A DNA stretch of 64,000 nucleotides. Source: Halobacteriovorax sp. JY17 (GTDB lineage: Bacteria; Bdellovibrionota; Bacteriovoracia; Bacteriovoracales; Bacteriovoracaceae). A program made the translations under genes and the position numbers. This document shows, one piece after another, positions 9,171-58,426 of this stretch. Position 1 is the stretch's first letter; the number at the start of each line of letters is the position of its first letter. The notes beneath the pieces were generated by a model. That model was not told where the DNA came from. It worked only from the letters and a program-made list of their open reading frames with translations, and made no database searches. The DNA lies in assembly GCF_002753895.1 (NCBI RefSeq), contig NZ_NJER01000002.1, forward strand, positions 310,001 through 374,000, given 5' to 3'.

Positions 9171-10226
9171 ATGAAATATATGCAACTGAGAAATCTATTT
9201 ATTTTAGCAGCGATCTTGAACTTTACTTCATGTATAGCACCAAAGGGAATGTCTAGTGACATCATTGGCGCTCCATCTGATGGAAGTAATAAACCCTATA
9301 TTCCAAGTTCTGAAGAGATAAGGGATTACATAGAGCCGGAGGCATCTGACTATGTGGAGTCTTCTCCAGAAGTTGGAGGAGGGGCAGGTGGAACAGAGGT
9401 TTGTCAGGGAATCCTTGTGGATGAAAAGGGTAAGGAACTTGTTATGCCTAAAATCTCTCCAAAGGGTTGGAAGGATGAGTGGTCAAAGAAAGTTATTAGC
9501 GTTTTAGAAACAAAGAAAGAAATATCAGATTCAATGCTCAAGGATTCCGATTTAATTAATAAGAAATCACTTAGTAAGCTAAGTTGTAATGGTTATAAAT
9601 TTGCGACTCCGAATGAGAGAAAGAGGTTTTGGATCACCTTTATCGCAGCAATGACTTATGCGGAAAGTGATTTGAATGCTAAGACAACCTATAAAGAAAA
9701 GAACGGAACGATATCAGCTGGTCTATTACAAATTGATTATCATAATGCCAATGCTTATTGCTCTGAATCGAGATCAATGGGGAGGAAGTTCACTCATAAA
9801 GATATGTTAAATGCAGATCTCAATTTAGAGTGTGGAATACATATTCTTCAGCAGCAACTAACTGCAAGAAGACCTCAGGCAATGAGAAAGCAGGGGAAGG
9901 GTAATCTCTTTGTTGAAAGATCATGGGGGGATAGTACTAATTGGTCTGTTTTAAAGCTTGGTCTTGGGGGTAATACTAAGGTCATTAATCAATTTAAAAA
10001 ACATTTATCCCAGATGCCTTTTTGTTCAAGAAAAGAAGCTCTGCCAAGAAAGCTCTCGAGTGAGGGATGTAGTGATGGTAAGGATGTATGTGTAAGTGAT
10101 GTTGTTGTTGGTGAAATGAAGAGCCGGTGCTTAGGAATAAATGACTCAAAGATGGTCAAGATTAATGAGGCCGTAGAAGATAGCAGTAGTGCAGCACAGG
10201 ACTCGGGAAAAGATATTCAGAAGTAA
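9171..10226 (+). CDS. lipoprotein with lytic-transglycosylase-like domain
   Basis: 351 residues. The signal peptide ends in lipobox FTSC (lipidated Cys21), so it is an outer- or inner-membrane lipoprotein. Residues about 25-75 are a flexible Ser/Glu/Pro/Gly-rich spacer. The domain at about 140-285 has the lysozyme/SLT pattern: AMTYAESDLNA (candidate catalytic Glu165), SAGLLQIDYHNA, and LNLECGIHIL. A C-terminal extension has several cysteines and an Asp/Ser-rich tail. Expected activity is cleavage of peptidoglycan glycan strands. Two ATGs (9171, 9180) are possible starts. Two small hairpins follow before groES. Family assignment is good, substrate unproven. Confidence 0.75.
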   Translation: MKYMQLRNLFILAAILNFTSCIAPKGMSSDIIGAPSDGSNKPYIPSSEEIRDYIEPEASDYVESSPEVGGGAGGTEVCQGILVDEKGKELVMPKISPKGWKDEWSKKVISVLETKKEISDSMLKDSDLINKKSLSKLSCNGYKFATPNERKRFWITFIAAMTYAESDLNAKTTYKEKNGTISAGLLQIDYHNANAYCSESRSMGRKFTHKDMLNADLNLECGIHILQQQLTARRPQAMRKQGKGNLFVERSWGDSTNWSVLKLGLGGNTKVINQFKKHLSQMPFCSRKEALPRKLSSEGCSDGKDVCVSDVVVGEMKSRCLGINDSKMVKINEAVEDSSSAAQDSGKDIQK

Positions 10227-12639: not shown

Positions 12640-14403
12640 ATGAAATCATTTATAAAAGTTAGATATATTCTCTTAGGTAAGTTTCTCAAAGATTCTATTA
12701 GTGAGGATAGAACGTATTTCGCATTAACTTTGATTGTTGGACTTTTGTCGGCGTTGGTTGTTATTGCTCTACACCACGGTGTTCTTCTTTTGAGAGAGGT
12801 CCTTCATACGTCAGGAACATTCACTTGGGAGAGCTTTCTCTATGGTGGAGTGGCCATTTTTGTTTCAGGTTGGCTAACTACTAGAAAACTCCCTTGGACA
12901 GCAGGTTCAGGTATCCCAAATGTGAGAATTGCTCTTGCTGTTTTTCATGGAAAGATTTCATTGAAAGATACTGTTGGTAAATTCTTCACATCACTTCTCT
13001 CTCTAGGTTCTGGTGTATCCCTTGGACTTGAAGGCCCCGCTGTCGCAACATCGGCAGGTCTAGGATCTTTTTTAGGAAATTACTTTTCACTTTCAAAGAA
13101 GCGAGTTCAAGCGCTTGTTGCTGTGGGAAGTGCTAGTGGGGTGGCGGCAGCTTTTCATACTCCAATTTCAGCAGTTGTCTTCACACTCGAAGAGGTTGTG
13201 GGGGATTTGAACGCAAAAATTCTTGGTTCAATTATCATCTCAAGTGTTATTGCTGTTGTGACTTCACAAATGCTTACAAATACGACGGAAGTTTTTCAAG
13301 AGGTTCATTATAGGTTAACGGATCACAGAGAGCTGATTTTCTATCTAGTCATTGGACTTGCGGCCTCTGTTGTTGGACCAATTTGGATGAACTCTGTTCT
13401 TAAACTTAGAGAGTTTAATCAAAAATTCATGAATAACCACAAACTGACTTTCATTATGATTGCTTTTTGTTGTGTTGGTCTATTAAGTCAAATACATCCA
13501 GGAGTAATTGGAAGTGGTAGTGGAACACTTGAAGGGACTCTGCTTTCTTTAATTCTAGATCCAAAAATCCTTATTACTCTATTTATTCTAAAATTTATTT
13601 CCACTTCAATTTGTTATTCAAGCGGAATGAGTGGTGGTCTTTTTATGCCAACACTTTTTATGGGGGCAACTCTTGGAAGCTTCATAGGGGTTTCTTGCTC
13701 ATATTTCTTCCCTGAGGTTACTAGTGTGAGTGGAGCCTATGCTCTCGTTGGAATGGGGGCATTCTTTGCTGTAGTTATTCGGGCACCATTTACTTCAATC
13801 TTAATGGTTTTTGAGTTAACTAGAGATTACAATATTATGTTACCTCTTATGATTGCTAATATAACGGCCTATGTAATTTCTGCAAAAATTGAACATAAAT
13901 CAATCTATGAAAAAATTTCTGAGCAAGATGGTATCCACCTCCCTAGTCACGATGATAATGAAATTCTTGAGTCCCTGACAGTTGAAGACGCTATGGAGCA
14001 CAATGTAATCAGCTTAAATTCATCACTTACTCTTATTGAAGCTTATAAAGGTATAAGAAAGGAGAGTATATCGGGTTATCCAATTTTAAAGAACGGAAGA
14101 CTTATTGGAATGATTGCTAAGTCTGATATGAGTATGGCCATTGGGAGAAAAGAATTTCAAAAGAAGTTAGAAGAGCTCTGTGAAAAGAAAGTCATTAAAA
14201 TCTACCCAGATCAATCTCTACTCGTCGCTTTTCATAGACTTAAGAGATTTCAAATATCTAGACTTCCTGTTGTGAGCAGGCTTGATGACAAACGTCTTGT
14301 AGGTGTTATTACTGCTCAAGATATTGTTCAAAAGTTTGGCTATGAGCTTACAGAGTCTACTAAAGAAGAAGATCAGATAATAGAAGATCTTGAAATTACT
14401 TAA
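12640..14403 (+). CDS. ClC-family chloride channel/antiporter with CBS domains
   Basis: 587 residues. The ClC core (about 20-420) shows GSGIPNVR (selectivity Ser), GLEGPAVATSAGLGS containing the gating glutamate, and GGLFMPTLFMGATLGS corresponding to the GxFxP motif. About ten hydrophobic helices are visible. The C-terminus (about 445-570) carries two CBS domains, the first beginning VEDAMEHNVISL and the second QSLLVAFHRLKRFQISRLPVV, which usually bind adenine nucleotides and tune transport. Bacterial relatives include both Cl-/H+ exchangers and channels. Alone downstream of the groEL terminator. Family certain, transport mode not. Confidence 0.93.
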   Translation: MKSFIKVRYILLGKFLKDSISEDRTYFALTLIVGLLSALVVIALHHGVLLLREVLHTSGTFTWESFLYGGVAIFVSGWLTTRKLPWTAGSGIPNVRIALAVFHGKISLKDTVGKFFTSLLSLGSGVSLGLEGPAVATSAGLGSFLGNYFSLSKKRVQALVAVGSASGVAAAFHTPISAVVFTLEEVVGDLNAKILGSIIISSVIAVVTSQMLTNTTEVFQEVHYRLTDHRELIFYLVIGLAASVVGPIWMNSVLKLREFNQKFMNNHKLTFIMIAFCCVGLLSQIHPGVIGSGSGTLEGTLLSLILDPKILITLFILKFISTSICYSSGMSGGLFMPTLFMGATLGSFIGVSCSYFFPEVTSVSGAYALVGMGAFFAVVIRAPFTSILMVFELTRDYNIMLPLMIANITAYVISAKIEHKSIYEKISEQDGIHLPSHDDNEILESLTVEDAMEHNVISLNSSLTLIEAYKGIRKESISGYPILKNGRLIGMIAKSDMSMAIGRKEFQKKLEELCEKKVIKIYPDQSLLVAFHRLKRFQISRLPVVSRLDDKRLVGVITAQDIVQKFGYELTESTKEEDQIIEDLEIT

Positions 14404-50473: not shown

Positions 50474-51335
50474 TTAAAACCATTTAGATGAAATTATACG
50501 CATTATGAGCTTCTGTAAATCTTGCTCTTTTTGAAATAAAGATATTTGTTGATTCATAAAGTTTTTGAGGTCTTTCTCCTCCAGACTACTTAGTGAACTA
50601 ATAGGAATATCTCTACCTGTCAAAAAATTAAAATACCTAGTTGTGGCACATGCGTAGAAGTCTCTTGTTTTACTAATTTCTAGTCCGAGTTGGTCTAAAT
50701 TATTCACTCTTGTATTTATAAAATTGTTTTCAATATCTCTATAAACAAAACTTCCGGAAGGATTAGTCTGGTGGTAATTCTTAACCGTATCAAAGAGCAG
50801 TGCTGCCTTTGGTTCTGACTGTATTGGCCTATGAAATTTTATATGTGAGCTACCTTGGTCTTTTGCTTAATTCAGATATTTTTCCACCAAAACTAATTTT
50901 TCCTTCACTTGATGACTCTAAAATTTTTGAGTTTGTATCATGTCCATCTTTATTCATATTACAGCCGCGAATAATAAGAGCATTTTGAAAGACTTCTGAG
51001 ATCTTTACCGAGGCTTCACTAGCTGTAGGTATTTTATTTTCTAAAAAAGAAGGCATATTAAAATTATGAAATTTAATTGTTTTGTAAATGACCTTGCCGT
51101 CTATAAATTCTGTCCCAATCATTGGAGAGGGCTTGAAATGAGAATTATCTAGGGGCCTTAGTGGAAGATCAAATAGCCACCGAGGAGGAGACTCATACAG
51201 ATTGAATAGAATGTAATTCATCTCTTTAGATGGGGACTTAGACTTTGGACCCTGATCTTTACTGTCATAGTTTGCAACAGATTTTGGAGCAACTGCTGAG
51301 AGAAGGAGTAAGGAGAGAAATTCTTTTCTATTCAT
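50474..51335 (-). pseudogene. exported-protein gene broken by a one-base frameshift
   Basis: Two frames form one protein of about 286 residues if one base is removed. The first frame (51335 to 50850) has a Tat/Sec-like N-terminus MNRKEFLSLLLLSAVAP and stops after KISELSKRPR. The next frame continues at once with KDQGSSHIKFHRPIQSEPK and runs to 50474 (FYACATTRYFNFLTGRDIP, resembling C-terminal parts of cytochrome-type exported families, weakly). The shift falls at the run AAAA on the minus strand (plus 50861-50864), where three As would restore the frame. Either a real mutation, a sequencing error or, less likely, programmed slippage. Confidence 0.75.
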
Positions 51336-51488: not shown

Positions 51489-51636
51489 ACATTATAGTGT
51501 GTTATTAAATATGATTTCTTTAATAAAAAGCATATTATAATGTATTAATAAATTTCTTGGCTGACTTGGATATAAAAAAGTATGTTATAATGTAATATAT
51601 CTTGTAAGAATATACTAAAATAGGGTGTTATAATGT
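51489..51636 (+). promoter_or_regulatory. four operator-like repeats of the first hip module
   Basis: Sites at 51489-51500, 51532-51543, 51582-51593 and 51625-51636 vary around the palindrome ACATTATAATGT. The half TATAATGT is exact in the last three and inverted in the first. Centres are 43, 50 and 43 bases apart. The third contains an extended -10 (TGTTATAAT), a likely promoter. The fourth includes the hipA start codon. Autoregulation by the HipB-like protein is inferred from known hip systems. Confidence 0.65.
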
Positions 51637-52910
51637 ATCTAAATTTGCAAATATCCAATAATGGTCAATGGCAAGATGCTGCAATACTTGAACTTACAGG
51701 CGAGCTGCCTCAGGGACTTAAGGCAAGTACCATATTACAATATCAAATAGATTACGCCTCAAGTAATCTAAATAGTAATGACTCTAGGGCGCTGTCTTTA
51801 AATGAAGTTGTTAACTTCTCACCAAAGAATAAGAATACATTTCCAGCATTTTGCTTTGATATAATTCCAGCAGGTAGAGCGAAAGAGTTTTGGCTAGATA
51901 GGCTAGATTTAGAGGATAGACCTTCAAGTAATTGGGAGCTTTTAAAGCTTGGGGCAATGACCCCTCCTGGAAATATTCGTGTAAAAGAGGCCTATGAAAC
52001 TTTAGTTCAGATGGATCACCCTGGTTTTTCAAAGGATGATGTCATAAGAATGAAAGAAGAGTTTATAGACCATGCTGAAAAGTGTGGGGCTCCTATTAGT
52101 GGAAGCTCTGGTGCGAATGGGGAAGCCAAGAAATTTCTTCTAACTGAAGATATTCATGGAAGATTTCATCCGACGGGCATCATTCCTTTAGAGAAAAGAA
52201 AGAAGGAGTGGATCATAAAGTTTCCTCGAGATAAATATGATGAAGATTTAGAAGTTCTAAGGGCAGAAGATTATTTTCATAAGATTGCAATGAATTTAAA
52301 CTTGAAAACTTTTGGAGAAACGAGTTTTAGTGAAAGATGTCTCTTTGTTGAAAGGTTCGATGTTTTCTACGAGAGCAGTATTGAAAATCGATATGGACTT
52401 GAATCCATTGCTTCAGCAATGAATATTGCTCAGTTTGGAAAGTCTCTTATTCATTTTGATGTTATTAAAAACCTAAAAGAACACTCAACAAGTTATGAGG
52501 CAGATCTTTTAGAGTATTTTAAAAGAGATTTGTTGAACTTAACGATGGGAAACCATGATAATCATTCTCGAAATACATCATATTTGAAAAAAAATAATGA
52601 GATCACGTTAAGTCCATTATATGACTTTTGCCCAATGTTTCTAGACTCTACCGGAGTATCTAGAACAATTCGCTGGGGAGAGTGTGAAGAGAATAAAGAT
52701 GTAAACTGGAATAGGGTATTTAGTCAGCTCATAGAGCTAAAACTTTTAAGGCCAGAGAATAAAGAAATGCTAATTTCTTCACTGATTGAGATGCTTGAAA
52801 ATCTCCCGGGAGTAATGAAGAGTTACGATATCTACGAAGAGATTACTGATTACATAACTCCTAGAAGAGAGAAGAACTTAGGAGGGTTAGAAAATGCGCA
52901 GAAAAGATAA
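51633..52910 (+). CDS. HipA-like serine/threonine kinase toxin (module 1)
   Basis: 425 residues. The P-loop-like SGSSGANGEAKKFLL (about 156-170) matches the Gly/Ser-rich HipA loop. Kinase motifs are GNHDNHSRN with catalytic Asp309 and LSPLYDF with metal-binding Asp331, so the active site appears intact. HipA proteins phosphorylate tRNA synthetases and cause growth arrest unless bound by HipB. The toxin gene precedes the antitoxin gene, the reverse of E. coli, and overlaps it by 17 bases. The start codon lies inside the last operator repeat; AGGG is 7 bases before it. Confidence 0.85.
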   Translation: MYLNLQISNNGQWQDAAILELTGELPQGLKASTILQYQIDYASSNLNSNDSRALSLNEVVNFSPKNKNTFPAFCFDIIPAGRAKEFWLDRLDLEDRPSSNWELLKLGAMTPPGNIRVKEAYETLVQMDHPGFSKDDVIRMKEEFIDHAEKCGAPISGSSGANGEAKKFLLTEDIHGRFHPTGIIPLEKRKKEWIIKFPRDKYDEDLEVLRAEDYFHKIAMNLNLKTFGETSFSERCLFVERFDVFYESSIENRYGLESIASAMNIAQFGKSLIHFDVIKNLKEHSTSYEADLLEYFKRDLLNLTMGNHDNHSRNTSYLKKNNEITLSPLYDFCPMFLDSTGVSRTIRWGECEENKDVNWNRVFSQLIELKLLRPENKEMLISSLIEMLENLPGVMKSYDIYEEITDYITPRREKNLGGLENAQKR

Positions 52911-53151
52911 TGCTGAAATTCTTCTTCGTGAGCTCTATGAAAAATTAGAGGTCGGTGAAATAGAGCTACCTGATGCAATAAGATCGATGAGAAAAACTAT
53001 GGGGATTACTCAAGAAAATTTTTCTAAAATGATAGGGGTTGATAAGAGAGTTTTGGCCGGCTTTGAAAATGGAAGCGGAAATCCGACTCTTAAAATAATG
53101 AATAAGATTCTTGGTGTATTTGGTCTTAAGCTAACGGCAAGAAGGCCTTGA
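52894..53151 (+). CDS. HipB-like antitoxin/repressor (module 1)
   Basis: 85 residues. The Cro/C1 helix-turn-helix is at about 28-80: IRSMRKTMGITQENFSKMIGVDKRVLAGFENGSGNPTLKIMNKIL, ending in a short FGLKLTARR strand typical of HipB. It overlaps the hipA 3' end, with AGGAGG eight bases upstream of the ATG. Likely binds the four palindromic repeats upstream of hipA and neutralises the kinase. Confidence 0.85.
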   Translation: MRRKDNAEILLRELYEKLEVGEIELPDAIRSMRKTMGITQENFSKMIGVDKRVLAGFENGSGNPTLKIMNKILGVFGLKLTARRP

Positions 53152-53312: not shown

Positions 53313-54095
53313 ATGGACACAGTGGTATCTAACAATGAATCAATTGTTGGTGCACTCGGAGTTAGGATAAGGAGCTACAAAAAAGAGCATCCAAATCTTA
53401 GCGGAGCGCAGATAGCAAGGCGATTCAATATGACGTCATCGTCATTAAATCGAATTGAAAATGGAGACGTCCGAGTTCCAACAATCGATCAAGTCTTAAA
53501 GATTTTAAGAGGAACTGGAGCAACTGGTGATATCTTAAAATATCTAGACGAGAATTATCCTTCGATCGCAGAAACTTACCGAGAGGTTTACGATACAAGA
53601 AATACTGAGTTTGTTCCTCAGGATCTCGAATGTCATCTAAACGACAAAGATAAATTCCTCATCATCCTTCTTGCTTTAACTGGAGATGGAACAACGAGAG
53701 AAGAAGTTCTCAGAGAGTTTGGTCGCAAGGGTCTATCCGAGCTTGAGTACCTTCTTGAGAAGGGACATCTAATTGAGGAAGATGGTGTTGTTGGGAAGAA
53801 TGATAAGGTTCTTACGATGGGGATGGAAACAGTTAAAAAATTGTTGGCATATTCTGTGGAAGAATGCTTTAAAACAGAAATGTGTTCAGAGAAGCTTAAT
53901 TCAATATTATACAAAACTGCAGCAGTTAAAGATAAAAATGTAATAAAAAGAATCAGAGCAGTATTAAATGATGCTCGACATGAGATTGATAAAATCCTTG
54001 AGGACCCAGAGAACCTCGGTTCTGAGAGAATTTTTATTGGTATGGTTTCGGACTCTTTAATTAGCGAGTACCCAGTGGTGGGGGGTGTACAATGA
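53313..54095 (+). CDS. XRE-type regulator paired with a small secreted protein (pair 1)
   Basis: 260 residues. The N-terminal helix-turn-helix (about 15-70) contains NLSGAQIARRFNMTSSSLNRIENGD and PTIDQVLKIL. The middle (about 110-165) looks like a second, winged-helix domain (LLALTGDGTTREEVLREFG, then a hydrophobic strand). The C-terminal part is helical and ends near FIGMVSDSL. A paralogue follows at 54474 with the same three-part layout, resembling the architecture of the TIGR02147/DUF4423 regulators found in Fibrobacteres and Bdellovibrio relatives, though not clearly a member. Its stop overlaps the start of the secreted-protein gene (ATGA). Confidence 0.75.
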   Translation: MDTVVSNNESIVGALGVRIRSYKKEHPNLSGAQIARRFNMTSSSLNRIENGDVRVPTIDQVLKILRGTGATGDILKYLDENYPSIAETYREVYDTRNTEFVPQDLECHLNDKDKFLIILLALTGDGTTREEVLREFGRKGLSELEYLLEKGHLIEEDGVVGKNDKVLTMGMETVKKLLAYSVEECFKTEMCSEKLNSILYKTAAVKDKNVIKRIRAVLNDARHEIDKILEDPENLGSERIFIGMVSDSLISEYPVVGGVQ

Positions 54096-54397
54096 AGTTT
54101 ATAATTAAAGCCATAACGGTCACTATAGTATCCTTTAGTGTTTTTGCTGGACCAGGGAAAGGAGGATTGAGTGGAGGAACATCTACAAGAATTCATCAAG
54201 AGCTGGAGCGTTACAAGTATGAGGGACAAAGAGAGGTTATCGTTGGTGAGAGAACAGCTACTGCTACAGCTAGAAAAAGAGAAGTATTTTTACCAAATAA
54301 TCTCATCGAAGTGAATATTAACGATCTCGAAGAGGTCACTTTGAAGGATGGCTCAGTCGTCAAGTCATACGAACTTATAGAATTCTTTAAGAAATAG
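54092..54397 (+). CDS. small secreted protein (pair 1)
   Basis: 101 residues, not recognised. A signal peptide (to about FSVFAGP) is followed by a Gly-rich start, a charged middle with VGERTATATARKREVF, and a C-terminus of alternating hydrophobic and acidic residues (DLEEVTLKDGSVVKSYELIEFF). The mature size is about 80 residues. It starts inside the stop of the regulator gene with a G-rich ribosome site (GGGGGGTG), so its synthesis depends on translation of the regulator. It is followed by a strong terminator. Confidence 0.7.
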   Translation: MKFIIKAITVTIVSFSVFAGPGKGGLSGGTSTRIHQELERYKYEGQREVIVGERTATATARKREVFLPNNLIEVNINDLEEVTLKDGSVVKSYELIEFFKK

Positions 54398-54408
54398 TAA
54401 ATAATAGG

Positions 54409-54446
54409 CAAGTCTGGAGTTAAAGTTTAACTCCAGACTTGTTTAA
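54409..54446 (+). terminator. strong hairpin terminator after pair 1
   Basis: A perfect 16-base inverted repeat (arms CAAGTCTGGAGTTAAA and its complement, one base apart), then TTTAATTT on plus. It lies 12 bases after the secreted-protein stop and 28 bases before the next start codon. Confidence 0.88.
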
Positions 54447-54473
54447 TTTCTTAGCCAGTCATAAAATTTAGCA
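54439..54473 (+). promoter_or_regulatory. candidate promoter giving a leaderless regulator mRNA
   Basis: TTGTTT at 54439-54444 and TAAAAT at 54462-54467 are 17 bases apart. The predicted start point falls at 54474, the A of the ATG of the second regulator gene, which has no Shine-Dalgarno sequence. The -35 overlaps the 3' arm of the preceding terminator. Confidence 0.45.
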
Positions 54474-55226
54474 ATGGAAAATAAAACGATTGCTGAAGTC
54501 TTAGCCGAACATATTTTAAATTATAAAAAAGAGCATCCTAGTTTAAGTAGTCAGCAGATTGCTAAGAAATTTGGTGTCACGAGTTCTTCTTTTAATAGAA
54601 TTGAGAGAGGTGATGTATCAAGCCCGACTATTGATCAAGTCGTAAAGATTCTCGGAGGAGTTGGACGGCACGCTGAAATTGTGGGCTATCTCAATGATTA
54701 TTACCCAATTATTTCAAAAACCTTTAGAGACTTCTATGTCACGGAAGATGGATCAAATTCTGGCGATAAAATTAAGCACTTCATCCAGCAAAAAGAGTTT
54801 TGCGTTATTATTCTATATTCTTTAGTAGGTAATGGCGTAAGTCGAGATGAAATTAAAAGAGTATTTGGAGAGGTTGGAGAGTCTAGACTTCAACACCTTA
54901 TAGATCACAATGTACTTGCAATTAACACAAAGGGAATAATAGGAAAGATTGATTATTATATGGATATTGGAATTGAAGTCGTATCAAAAGTTGCTTGCAT
55001 CGCCCTTGATGAGTGTTTTAAATTAGTTACGAAAGATTACGGCTATAGCAGAATTGATTTCAAGGCAAAAAGTGTTGATAAAGAAAAGGCTATGCCCAAA
55101 GTGGTTAATATTCTTTTAAAAGCTTCTGAGGATATAGAAAAGATAGTAGATAGTGATGAGTATAAGGGAGACTATCCAATGTTCTACGTCCTCTGCACAG
55201 ACAGCCTATACCCAAAAATAAAATAA
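54474..55226 (+). CDS. XRE-type regulator paired with a small secreted protein (pair 2)
   Basis: 250 residues, paralogue of the 53313 gene. The N-terminal helix-turn-helix is clearly related (SLSSQQIAKKFGVTSSSFNRIERGD, PTIDQVVKIL against the first copy's PTIDQVLKIL). The middle winged-helix-like region (LVGNGVSRDEIKRVFGEVGE) and the helical C-terminus correspond too, but identity falls outside the N-terminus, so duplication is old. No ribosome binding site precedes the ATG; see the candidate leaderless promoter. It is followed by the gene for a second small secreted protein. Confidence 0.75.
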   Translation: MENKTIAEVLAEHILNYKKEHPSLSSQQIAKKFGVTSSSFNRIERGDVSSPTIDQVVKILGGVGRHAEIVGYLNDYYPIISKTFRDFYVTEDGSNSGDKIKHFIQQKEFCVIILYSLVGNGVSRDEIKRVFGEVGESRLQHLIDHNVLAINTKGIIGKIDYYMDIGIEVVSKVACIALDECFKLVTKDYGYSRIDFKAKSVDKEKAMPKVVNILLKASEDIEKIVDSDEYKGDYPMFYVLCTDSLYPKIK

Positions 55227-55229
55227 CCC

Positions 55230-55247
55230 CGTTCTAGATCTGGAACG
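55230..55247 (+). other. small hairpin after second regulator
   Basis: A 7-bp stem (CGTTCTA with TGGAACG, one G-T pair) with a 4-base loop, immediately after the stop. No T-tract. It precedes the larger structure that covers the next ribosome site. Confidence 0.5.
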
Positions 55248-55254
55248 AAAAGTT

Positions 55255-55304
55255 GGCCTCTCCATTGCTTTGTATTGAACAAGGCAATGAACAAGGGAGA
55301 CGCC
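55255..55304 (+). promoter_or_regulatory. mRNA structure that sequesters a ribosome binding site
   Basis: An 11-bp stem with 5-base loop (55263-55273 with 55279-55289; arms CATTGCTTTGT and ACAAGGCAATG, one G-T pair). It extends outward: CTCTC at 55258-55262 pairs with GGGAG at 55295-55299, the Shine-Dalgarno sequence of the ATG at 55306, and GGC pairs with GCC. An AACAA bulge separates the two helices. Such pairing would block initiation until opened by a ligand, temperature or ribosome movement. Confidence 0.6.
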
Positions 55305-55305
55305 A

Positions 55306-55584
55306 ATGAAGAAACTATTATTAATTTCAACACTTTTCTTATCAATCTTTTCTGCAAGTGCAGATCAATCGACATCAAGAACTTACATTGTAAATACTGA
55401 TGGTACGGTAACTTTTTTAAACAGAGTTATTCCAAATCAAGATGAAACAGGAAGAACGTATATTGTGAATGAAGATGGAACAATTGAGTTCTTAGATAGA
55501 ATTGCTCCACTGACTAATTTTGACGTTAATACATTAGAAAATTTCCAAGTTGATATAACTGAATACTTAGAGAAGCTAAACTAA
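55306..55584 (+). CDS. small secreted protein with internal duplication (pair 2)
   Basis: 92 residues. Signal peptide to about SASA. The mature part contains two copies of a motif: RTYIVNTDGTVTFLNRVIP and RTYIVNEDGTIEFLDRIAP, about 25 residues apart, each likely a beta-hairpin. The acidic tail (VDITEYLEKLN) is helical. No similarity to the first secreted protein is visible beyond size, export and position. Its ribosome site is embedded in a predicted long hairpin. Function unknown. Confidence 0.7.
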   Translation: MKKLLLISTLFLSIFSASADQSTSRTYIVNTDGTVTFLNRVIPNQDETGRTYIVNEDGTIEFLDRIAPLTNFDVNTLENFQVDITEYLEKLN

Positions 55585-55593
55585 GAGGCAATT

Positions 55594-56847
55594 GTGGTAG
55601 AAGTATTGAAGTATACTTTAGATTTTGGAACAAGTAATACTCTTCTTGGAGCAATCACTGCGCTAGGAAGAGTTCCTTCTATTCCTCTAGATTTTAAAAA
55701 TATTAATAATCCTCACGTTATTAAATCTTTAATTTACACTCCAAATGAACATGAGTGGTACTTTGGAGTCGAGTGCTATGATAAGTATCTTGAGTATGAA
55801 GGCGAGGGGCGATTCTTTAGATCCTTTAAGACATTACTTTCAAGAGAGAGTTTTGAAGGAACAATGATTCATGGAAAGAGGGTTGGAGTTGTTGAACTTG
55901 TTGCCAGATACTTGCGAGAAGTAAGGCATAGGGCGAATAGCTTCTATCAACAAGACGTGACTCGAGTTGTCTGTGGAAGGCCAGTGCGCTTTGGGGATTC
56001 TAAGAAGTCTGATGATGTCGCCCTTTCTAGATTGAAGGAGGCCCTTAGGCTTGCAGGATTTGTAGATATAGAATTTACCTACGAGCCTGTGGCCGCAGCT
56101 AGAAGTATGAAGATTAATTTAAAAAGCGAAGCCAAAGTCTTAGTTGCAGATCTTGGAGCGGGAACAAGTGACTTTAGTATTATTAATATGAAAAATGGAA
56201 CATTCTCTCCTTCAGATATTCTTTCTGTTAGCGGAGTGAATGTTGCCGGAGATAGTTTTGATTACTCATTGATGAAAAACTTTATCCTTCCTGAATTTGG
56301 TTCTCGAATAAAGTACAAAAGACCAGGAAGTTCAGTTGAGCATGGAATTTCTAAAACACTTATTCAGCAAATGAGTACTCCTGCAATATTCTCTCTTATT
56401 AATGATTCGAAGATTGAGAGTTATATTGAGGACGCGCAGGACTTTGTCACAAATCCGCAAGATTTAAAGAGATTAGAAAATCTAGAGAGCTTATTTGATT
56501 CAAAGCTTGGCTTTGATCTTATGAAGGAGGTGGAACTCGCAAAAATAGATCTATCAAAATTTATGGAAAGAGAGCTTGATTACAGTAAAAATGGAGTCAT
56601 ATTTAAGGCAAGAATTGAAAGAGGCAAGTATGAGGAGTCTTCAAAGTATGTAGAGGATAAAGTTTTTGAGGCTTTAGAGGTAGCACTTCTTAAAGCAGAA
56701 TTAAAAGACATGGAGATTGATGCAATCATCTGCACTGGAGGCAGTGTTCAAAACCCAAATTTTTTAAAACTGATCAAGAATAAGTTTGGAAAAGAAAAGG
56801 TCTTATTATCAAATGATCAATGTGATGTGGTTGGAGGGCTTAATTAA
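55594..56847 (+). CDS. YegD-like Hsp70-family ATPase
   Basis: 417 residues, GTG start with AGAGG upstream. Actin/Hsp70 ATPase motifs: LDFGTSNTLLG (phosphate 1), VCGRPVRFG, LKEALRLAGFVDIEFTYEPVAAARS (YegD-type), ADLGAGTSDFSI (phosphate 2) and CTGGSVQNPNFLK (adenosine). It ends soon after the ATPase fold, so there is no typical substrate-binding domain, as in E. coli YegD. It starts 9 bases after the second secreted-protein gene, suggesting one unit. Its last 26 bases are duplicated 1.8 kb downstream beyond the second hip module. Confidence 0.85.
   Translation: MVEVLKYTLDFGTSNTLLGAITALGRVPSIPLDFKNINNPHVIKSLIYTPNEHEWYFGVECYDKYLEYEGEGRFFRSFKTLLSRESFEGTMIHGKRVGVVELVARYLREVRHRANSFYQQDVTRVVCGRPVRFGDSKKSDDVALSRLKEALRLAGFVDIEFTYEPVAAARSMKINLKSEAKVLVADLGAGTSDFSIINMKNGTFSPSDILSVSGVNVAGDSFDYSLMKNFILPEFGSRIKYKRPGSSVEHGISKTLIQQMSTPAIFSLINDSKIESYIEDAQDFVTNPQDLKRLENLESLFDSKLGFDLMKEVELAKIDLSKFMERELDYSKNGVIFKARIERGKYEESSKYVEDKVFEALEVALLKAELKDMEIDAIICTGGSVQNPNFLKLIKNKFGKEKVLLSNDQCDVVGGLN
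56822..56847 (+). repeat. direct repeat, left copy (3' end of the yegD-like gene)
   Basis: 26 bases including GGTTGGAGGGCTTAATTAA and ending at the stop codon. The right copy at 58648-58673 matches at 25 of 26 positions. They bracket the second hip module. Confidence 0.85.
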
Positions 56848-56894: not shown

Positions 56895-58220
56895 TTAGGG
56901 GCCAATAAATAGAGACATTCTTTCTCTTATAAGAGACTTTAGTTTTTCTTTCTTATTTTCTGGAAGAAAAGACTTAGAGATAAGTTCGTCCCATAAAGAA
57001 ACTTTGGACTCAAATTTCTTGTAGATGTAATTTCTTACTTTTTCTTTTATTTCAAATATATTGGCCAGTTTGTCAAAGTCTTCTCGGTTCAGTTTGTTCT
57101 TCTTGCCATTGATTGATAATGCCATTTGCTCATTGTCGTGCTCTTTGAAGTCTTCCTGGTAAATTTCAAAACTTAATAAGTCAAAGGCAGGAGAGAGGGA
57201 TGCTTTCTCATTAAGTAGAACACTAATATTCTTTAGATGAAGATCAGAGTTTCCTACAATAAATGAAAATACAATTAATTCAAAAAGCCTAAGAAGCTGA
57301 TCTGCTGGAGCATTTTCTGCGCAATACTTTCTTAAAGTCTTTGCTACCTTTTGGTAGCTTCCAATATATTTTCTTTCTGTAATCTGATCAAGTATTTGAC
57401 AAAAGTCTTCCATGTGGATTTTTGAACCATCATCCTCTCTATCAAACCTCTTTATAAGTAGAGCGAGCTCATTACTTTCAAGAAAAACCAAAGTAGACTC
57501 TGCTGTAGACATACCATAAGATCTTGCTAGCTTTAAAATAAGATCTTCATTCTCTGGTATGTGAGGAATCTTTCCTTTAGGTTTAAGAATATAGTTTCCC
57601 GAGAGATGAGCTAGTGTTAGTCGTTCACTCTTTCCATTTTTCTGTAGGGAGAGTGAAATTTTATTTTGTACTCCTGGAATAGTGTTACCATTTTTAATAT
57701 TTAGAAGGGATAGCTCATTTAAAATCTCTCTATTCAAATATATTGAAGGAGGGTTATTGCTTTTAAAGAATTGAGTAGAACACTTTTCATGAAATTCTCC
57801 ATTCTCTAATTTTTCGTAGCAGTATAAGCACTTTCCTGGATTTGTGATTTTTCTTTCTTTATAAATGTCTGGAGAAGGTTCTTCTCTTAGTTCTTCAGTT
57901 GAGGACTGAACAATAGAGACTGCACCTATTGGATCCTGGCAAGTTTTAAGAAGTAAGTTAAAGCGGTCTCTAATTGGATGGTACTTCCAGTACGTTGAGG
58001 CAAGTCCTAGGATCCAACCTTCAGGGAGTAGACCATCAAAGAATCCATTAATATACTGAGAAGAAAAAGCTTCACGCTGTAAAGGGAGAGAGTAGCTTAG
58101 CGGGAGTGCGGCCATGTCTTCAAGATAGCTTTTTGAATATAAGAATATAAAGTCACCATCATCAGTTTCAGTGATCTCACCTGCAAGTTTATCCTTGTAA
58201 TAGACTAGCCCTTTTTTCAT
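56895..58220 (-). CDS. HipA-like kinase toxin with Cys-rich insert (module 2)
   Basis: 441 residues, canonical HipA order. The N-terminal subdomain (about 1-110) has FFDGLLPEGW and GAVSIV. A Cys-rich segment, CLYCYEKLENGEFHEKC (Cys131, Cys134, His144, Cys147), could bind zinc. The P-loop-like PGVQNKISL is at about 182-190. Kinase motifs GNSDLHLKN (Asp326) and LSPAFDLLS (Asp347) are intact. Distinct from module 1. The gene overlaps its hipB by four bases (ATGA) in the classical hipB-hipA order. Likely phosphorylates a translation factor or tRNA synthetase; target unknown. Confidence 0.9.
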   Translation of the reverse strand: MKKGLVYYKDKLAGEITETDDGDFIFLYSKSYLEDMAALPLSYSLPLQREAFSSQYINGFFDGLLPEGWILGLASTYWKYHPIRDRFNLLLKTCQDPIGAVSIVQSSTEELREEPSPDIYKERKITNPGKCLYCYEKLENGEFHEKCSTQFFKSNNPPSIYLNREILNELSLLNIKNGNTIPGVQNKISLSLQKNGKSERLTLAHLSGNYILKPKGKIPHIPENEDLILKLARSYGMSTAESTLVFLESNELALLIKRFDREDDGSKIHMEDFCQILDQITERKYIGSYQKVAKTLRKYCAENAPADQLLRLFELIVFSFIVGNSDLHLKNISVLLNEKASLSPAFDLLSFEIYQEDFKEHDNEQMALSINGKKNKLNREDFDKLANIFEIKEKVRNYIYKKFESKVSLWDELISKSFLPENKKEKLKSLIRERMSLFIGP

Positions 58221-58426
58221 TTAGTATCTCTAGTTGGAGTTAATGTAAATCCTAGAAAGTTTAGAACTTCGTTAACCTTGTCGAGCCTTAGTGTTGGCTT
58301 TCCCTGCTCTAGGCTTCTAAGAAAGCTCAAGCTTACCCCGCACCTTAGGGAGAACTCCTCTTGTGTGTATCCAAGCTTTTTCCGTTCAGTTGCTACTACT
58401 GTTGAAATTAGAGATTTTTCCTTCAT
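58217..58426 (-). CDS. HipB-like antitoxin/repressor (module 2)
   Basis: 69 residues. A compact Cro/C1 helix-turn-helix: ATERKKLGYTQEEFSLRCGVSLSFLRSLEQGKPTLRLDKV, ending FLGFTLTPT as in E. coli HipB. First gene of the pair. The nearest operator is one base upstream of its ATG and no Shine-Dalgarno sequence is visible. It should bind the three TATAC-N8-GTATA sites and inhibit the HipA kinase. Confidence 0.88.
   Translation of the reverse strand: MKEKSLISTVVATERKKLGYTQEEFSLRCGVSLSFLRSLEQGKPTLRLDKVNEVLNFLGFTLTPTRDTK

Follow-up and report, generated by a model that had tools for sequence, protein, structure and literature searches.

Quorum-sensing systems of the RRNPP type are recognized by five published membership criteria (PMC10075063), which concern a receptor of 250-500 amino acids (aa), a propeptide of 10-100 aa, a Sec signal on that propeptide, adjacency of the two genes and, as a defining feature, tetratricopeptide repeats (TPR). 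Here we describe a gene pair that resembles these systems in part. It lies in a stretch of 64,000 nucleotides (nt) from Halobacteriovorax sp. JY17 (contig NZ_NJER01000002.1, positions 310,001 to 374,000), hereafter the window (G000:C2:310001-374000), which was taken from a genome of 3.47 Mb. The pair consists of regulator 1 (53313..54095, + strand; 260 aa), which has an N-terminal Xre/Cro-type helix-turn-helix (HTH; residues ~11-67) and is the founder of the regulator family treated below, and exported protein 1 (54092..54397, +; 101 aa), whose start codon overlaps the stop of regulator 1 in the sequence ATGA. An intrinsic terminator (54405..54445, +; a strong 19-bp hairpin, z = -7.35) ends this operon, and an equivalent hairpin stands at the matching place in the related genome G002. 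Both regulators of the window (260 and 250 aa) are within the size range of RRNPP receptors, exported protein 1 carries a Sec signal by heuristic prediction, and the genes adjoin with their 4-base overlap; exported protein 1 measures 101 aa, next to the upper limit for propeptides, and the median of the partners at large is about 118 aa. Searches of Pfam and NCBIfam with E values of up to 1 found no TPR in the regulators, so RRNPP membership is ruled out despite the agreement in adjacency, size and export signal.

The regulators form a large, undescribed DNA-binding family in marine predatory bacteria, namely Halobacteriovorax and its relatives. A single-sequence search placed the family in 40 of 59 genomes of a family-level sample, and a profile built on its members raised the set to 93 and later 122 distinct regulator sequences from Bacteriovoracaceae and other Bdellovibrionota. 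This profile was matched at E <= 1e-8 by 87 of 291 Bdellovibrionota genomes, of which the greater part belong to the same family and the rest to three further ones. Named relatives that carry the family include Halobacteriovorax marinus 36_234_T64, Bacteriovorax sp. BSW11_IV and Bacteriovoracaceae metagenome-assembled genomes, from which a contig search with closer alignment yielded seven loci. Regulator 2 likewise has an Xre/Cro-type HTH. In Pfam, regulator 1 matched HTH_31 (E 1.6e-9) and regulator 2 matched HTH_37 just below the cut-off (7.9e-6); beyond the HTH, neither had a domain above the cut-off, and a sequence search of the PDB gave HTH-level matches only. The C-terminal region of regulator 1 is predicted to contain a winged-helix-like segment at residues ~103-161. 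An AlphaFold2 (AF2) model built from 10 sequences (predicted local distance difference test, pLDDT, 73) shows the HTH with linker helices, a middle part that resembles a winged helix and a helix at the C-terminus. For this model, Foldseek returned essentially HTH matches, none below E 0.001; among PDB structures, ComR was matched at a probability of 0.44. As a separate observation, the family regulators at L177 (297-2162) and L178 (2819-4795) are fusions with a histidine-kinase HATPase_c domain; another domain at their C-terminus resembles a receiver by eye.

The pairing of regulator and exported gene is far beyond chance and phylum-wide. An exported gene was located within 60 nt of the regulator in 104 of 122 family members. 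Signal peptides were called by a liberal heuristic of hydropathy, charge and cleavage site rather than by SignalP, with the same rule for the controls. By this rule, 78 of 105 members were followed by a signal-peptide gene no more than 30 nt away, 52 of these 78 at exactly -4, the commonest junction being the 4-base ATGA overlap; when either side was considered, the count rose to 91 of 105. Among neighbouring control genes only 12 of 221 were followed by a signal-peptide gene, and among genes of random 20-kb regions drawn from four genomes (400 kb sampled) 16 of 196 were, six of them at -4. The initial annotation had put forward regulator and small exported protein as a functional pair, and had named absence of the pairing from relatives as grounds for giving this up; the neighbourhood survey instead found it widely conserved. 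The window genome itself holds two further family members, each coupled to an exported gene by a 1-base overlap: one on contig C5 with a downstream partner that ends in GDGSGG, and one on C1 with an upstream partner. In one clade the order is reversed: the exported gene comes first, and in most cases it shares 1-4 bases with the regulator gene or adjoins it directly. Similar reversed pairs occur in other Bdellovibrionota families. Beside reversed-order pairs and a TIGR02147 gene we also noticed a recurrent Cys-containing exported family (..C..DG....K.C..W/Y..; L006 4717-5208, L165 4370-4885, L171 4019-4693, L179 1963-2457 and L008 2401-2916), which is possibly a third component.

Comparison by blastp sorted the exported partners into 37 clusters. 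A Gly/acidic motif was present in 84 of 102 partners versus 17 of 185 exported neighbours and, counted by cluster, in 28 of 37 partner versus 12 of 134 control clusters (Fisher 3e-15). Since the motif was defined on the same data in which it was counted, these p-values are descriptive, and the stronger point is the contrast with independent random regions, where 5 of 81 exported proteins had the motif. It takes the forms GGDMGGG, GGDGSGG, GGTGAGG and TGVDGGG at the C-terminus, GGGGVDAGGGG and GIDTGGGG after the signal peptide, and pairs of GE(V/F/I/L)TGAG (e.g. GEVTGAG) at internal positions. Some partners repeat it 2-6 times, GGEGSGSG being found in up to six tandem copies, and a Gly-bearing 6-mer was repeated in 17 of 102 partners versus 1 of 185 controls. 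In several partner families the motif is the most conserved element; in the GGDMGGG group its columns are 89-100% conserved, and one member of this group (L022) has an unrelated scaffold. Mapped on the regulator tree, motif types required 27 changes versus a shuffled mean of 62, and none of 200 shuffles was as low. The near-constant coupling of these regulators to exported proteins, and a motif common to partners that are otherwise mostly unrelated, suggest pairs of regulator and signal such as are not known in Gram-negative bacteria. Ten downstream partners measure no more than 100 aa. In a 313-aa partner (L172, 1326-2267), which is paired with a family member from another Bdellovibrionota family, four poly-Gly blocks (GGGG to GGGGG) were seen to alternate with stretches rich in Asn/Glu.

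Exported protein 1 has a predicted hydrophobic signal peptide at residues ~2-19, followed directly by the Gly-rich stretch GPGKGGLSGGTST (54149..54187, +). Relatives carry GGGGVDAGGGGT, GIDTGGGG or GVDTGGG. The best conserved part of the protein is a C-terminal hairpin-helix, DLEEVTLKDGSVVKSYELIEFFKK (54323..54394, +). Between the window genome and G002, regulator 1 is 72% identical and exported protein 1 is 38% identical; the parts conserved in the latter are the C-terminal EVTLKDGxVxxxExxEFFKK and the Gly-rich start. Its AF2 model is mostly disordered, with a pLDDT of ~80 in the C-terminal hairpin and helix only, and is too poor for a fold search. Orthologous partners are located at L078, L127/L175 and L176.

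In a few genomes regulator and exported part are a single chain. The 424-aa protein at L067 (genome G053) joins a regulator, a hydrophobic segment, GGISGGSSDLALGGVGGGASDL and an exported domain, and this type of fusion is kept in all three genomes of one genus (L067, L185 and L186), at 91% and 61% identity and without stops. At L048, in the single genome G019, the regulator ends in a signal-like segment that runs straight into SDGIGGGGSSGGGGGNTNKRILKIK; the exported part, of only about 25 residues that are mostly Gly, therefore comprises little beyond the motif. These fusions place the regulator and the exported Gly segment in one pathway, and do not tell the direction of the signal.

A distant relationship extends the comparison to TIGR02147/DUF4423 proteins. 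These are abundant in Bdellovibrionota, and we know of no function for them. In a profile comparison with hhalign, the window regulator family aligned with TIGR02147 over 229 columns (97.9% probability, E 3.7e-13), and its C-terminal part without the HTH still did so at 92.1% (E 6.1e-7), with column-shuffled controls reaching no more than 0.7%. The profile search that the initial annotation had proposed for the regulators thus revealed distant TIGR02147/DUF4423 homology over the HTH and the C-terminal domain, and scores below the family's own cut-off of 50 bits: regulator 2 reached 13.7 bits, over the HTH part only, and regulator 1 gave no match, so that neither is counted as a TIGR02147 member; neither matched PF14394. 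Of the 59 genomes of the family, 54 contain TIGR02147, a single genome having as many as 35 copies, and 20 of the 32-33 sampled genes had an exported gene immediately downstream. Their partners (loci L098-L126) typically carry GGVDVGNG, GNGGG or, in lipoproteins, TGNP right after the signal peptide. Given the homology and the coupled exported genes, the window pair appears to represent a branch within a wider superfamily of regulators with exported proteins. TIGR02147 is named in no paper of the open literature that we searched, where DUF4423 had a single occurrence, in one proteomics table. The DUF4423 regulator Bd3700 of B. bacteriovorus is raised during growth in prey (PMC12546842).

The reading that we favour, at a probability of roughly 0.4, is that the exported protein is the precursor (pro-peptide) of its own regulator's ligand. 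It would be made in step with its regulator, would leave through Sec and would probably be trimmed, releasing a Gly-motif peptide. This peptide could be re-imported by oligopeptide permeases, or could be caught before export; the window genome encodes six oligopeptide-binding proteins (SBP_bac_5). It may then bind the C-terminal domain of the regulator and alter DNA binding at the regulator's own promoter, and the regulator would perhaps also act at nearby surface-polysaccharide genes. No common palindrome was found upstream of the regulator 1 orthologues. Applied to the window, regulator 1 and exported protein 1, which lie in one overlapping gene unit closed by the terminator, would be one signalling pair, a possibility that we advance tentatively. 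In its favour stand the coupling throughout the regulator family, the motif shared across partner clusters and repeated in some, the agreement of motif types with the regulator tree, the fusions, the six oligopeptide-binding proteins and the predicted disorder of exported protein 1. Several points weigh against a precursor role. Peptide binding, processing and re-import are steps that we infer; the regulators are devoid of a TPR domain; and the histidine-kinase fusions at L177 and L178 have no coupled exported partner. The motif carries little information and may serve as a linker or sorting tag, and its co-clustering with the regulators is also expected from joint inheritance alone. Some partners reach 250-336 aa, with conserved Cys, and exceed known propeptides. 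The fusions would set the motif across the membrane from the DNA-binding domain. In exported protein 1 itself the Gly stretch is a degenerate form (GPGKGGLSGG) that was left out of the 84.

The exported proteins could instead be the output, that is, surface or secreted proteins for predation or the envelope, each under the control of its own autorepressor. In this reading, the Gly motif would be a sorting, processing or attachment tag for a common envelope machinery. We regard this main rival as a serious, if still doubtful, explanation. The size of the longest partners (up to 336 aa, including conserved Cys-containing scaffolds) speaks for it, as do the related tags after the signal peptide of TIGR02147 partners, the adjoining polysaccharide loci and the rise of Bd3700 in prey. 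However, the motif is rare (5 of 81) in exported proteins that are unpaired with such a regulator; the position of the motif varies, being N-terminal, in internal repeats or C-terminal, and is thus unlike that of known sorting tags; and it is difficult to see why a mere output should occur in natural fusions with a DNA-binding protein. A further reading is pre-export sensing, in which the regulator binds the unexported precursor until active export frees or re-localises it, export of the tail pulling the regulator to the membrane in the fusions. It would suit the split forms and the coupling of the genes, and agrees well with the fused forms. This we consider improbable: the motif is mostly found in the mature part and in repeats, which the model has no need of, and it too depends on an inferred interaction between partner and regulator. 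Least probable of all, in our judgement, is a reading that the initial annotation had allowed, in which the exported proteins are small antimicrobial or conflict peptides, each governed by a regulator of its own. Their small size and Gly-richness, predation as a way of life and nearby hip modules would suit such a role, but no immunity gene was seen, PADLOC gave nothing specific, the chromosomal position of the pair is stable while the hip modules vary, and the fusion to the regulator also speaks against it.

If the exported partner is a ligand, predatory bacteria own a peptide-signalling repertoire without TPR receptors, and predator coordination of attack, growth and exit becomes testable one gene pair at a time. 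If it is merely a regulated product, the occurrence of one Gly/acidic tag in unrelated exported proteins still points to a route of envelope sorting or processing that is as yet undescribed. The ligand reading can be carried further, to a phylum-wide, TPR-independent peptide-signalling superfamily in predatory Gram-negative bacteria that unites this regulator family with TIGR02147/DUF4423. Each regulator would read the Gly/acidic motif of its own partner, lineage-specific motif types would provide many parallel private channels per cell, and the fusions would be natural one-chain versions. We think this wider proposal rather unlikely as it stands.

Downstream of the terminator lie regulator 2 (54474..55226, +; 250 aa), a diverged paralogue of regulator 1, exported protein 2 (55306..55584, +; 92 aa), which contains two tandem GRTYIVNxDGTVxFLxR units, and a YegD-like Hsp70-type ATPase (55594..56847, +; 417 aa), whose GTG start is 9 nt past the stop of exported protein 2. 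As the initial annotation had it, the two regulators are related (38% identity) and the exported proteins are not visibly so (22% over a gappy alignment). Its suggestion that regulator 2 and exported protein 2 repeat the arrangement of the first pair did not survive the comparison with relatives. Exported protein 2 and the YegD-like gene occur together, without regulator 2, in H. marinus 36_234_T64 (G205; L127/L175) and in G124 (L176), where they are 11 nt apart or overlap by 1 base, and in G002 regulator 2 is kept, exported protein 2 is gone and the YegD-like gene is broken by an internal deletion and a frameshift. Because of this synteny, exported protein 2 and the YegD-like ATPase are one unit, in an operon of their own, and regulator 2 is an orphan paralogue, among the few members without an immediately coupled exported gene. 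A second pair is thus ruled out by synteny, the terminator and the 79-nt spacing between regulator 2 and exported protein 2. On the regulator tree, regulator 2 and its G002 orthologue share a long branch.

Exported protein 2 is preceded by a conserved two-hairpin leader (55231..55300, +; conserved stretch 55231-55305), which consists of a hairpin GTTCT..GGAAC, an AAAA spacer and a second stem that pairs with the Shine-Dalgarno region. This leader is conserved in G124 (L176 ~12645-12719), in G205 (L175, upstream of exported protein 2, - strand) and upstream of the broken YegD-like gene in G002 (L078 9500-9640), and it matched no Rfam family. Its pattern occurs at zero mismatches once in each of four genomes of the genus and is absent from the rest of 129 family genomes; with this pattern found only upstream of exported protein 2/YegD, a dispersed operator was rejected. 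The element is a candidate for translational control of an Hsp70-like gene, either as a switch or as an RNA thermometer. The YegD-like protein scored 142.9 bits against NF008673 (1.3e-41), short of the equivalog cut-off of 331, and is a second paralogue; the canonical-type copy is at G000:C1:1438916. Canonical YegD copies are without a coupled exported gene, and a family-wide unit of YegD with a small exported gene was accordingly rejected.

The whole cassette is flanked by a hipA/hipB module (51633-53151) before regulator 1 and by a hipB/hipA pair (56895-58426, - strand) after the YegD-like gene. The five open reading frames, the 4-base overlap, the 9-nt gap, the YegD-like gene and the position between two hip modules all proved to be as the initial annotation had placed them. 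The mobile, defence or conflict function that it had considered plausible from these neighbours found no support: PADLOC gave only weak generic matches and no specific defence-system protein, and comparison of gene neighbourhoods showed regulator 1 and exported protein 1 of relatives in a constant position next to polysaccharide genes, with hip modules varying around them. Within the genus, hipA/hipB modules come and go round the locus (the two in the window; L176 4709-6261; L078 ~9455-9515), and in G002 HipB is reduced to a C-terminal remnant with the sequence MNKILSVFGLKLTARRV (L078 ~9455-9515), which has regulator 2 on one side and the broken YegD-like gene on the other. Two exported-protein genes that are intact in G002 (645 and 558 aa; L078 3720-7330) are fragmentary in the window, where pieces of 77 and 161 aa at 50474-51335 adjoin the hipA insertion.

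Compared with described systems, the window's YegD-type ATPase resembles the YegD/PRK11678 Hsp70-like chaperones and differs from them in being a genus-specific second copy and in its coupling to a small exported protein whose leader is structured and conserved. TIGR02147/DUF4423 differs in the GNG/GNGG-type motif of its partners. With RRNPP(A) systems (Rap-Phr, PlcR-PapR, Rgg-SHP, AimR-AimP) the window family shares a cytoplasmic HTH regulator of 250-290 aa whose gene adjoins, and often overlaps, that of a small protein exported through Sec, the presence of several paralogous pairs in one genome and, in some partners, a repeated short motif reminiscent of tandem propeptides (PMC11343458). In contrast to these systems, it has a different C-terminal domain in place of the TPR, belongs to Gram-negative Bdellovibrionota, has longer partners with a Gly-rich motif and includes natural fusions of regulator and exported part. 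Finally, the fusions at L067, L185, L186 and L048 recall membrane one-component regulators of the ToxR/CadC type, since they combine a DNA-binding domain, a transmembrane or signal segment and an exported part; however, their HTH is of the Xre rather than the OmpR type, their exported part is Gly-rich, and the common form in the window family is two genes, with a signal peptide on the exported protein.

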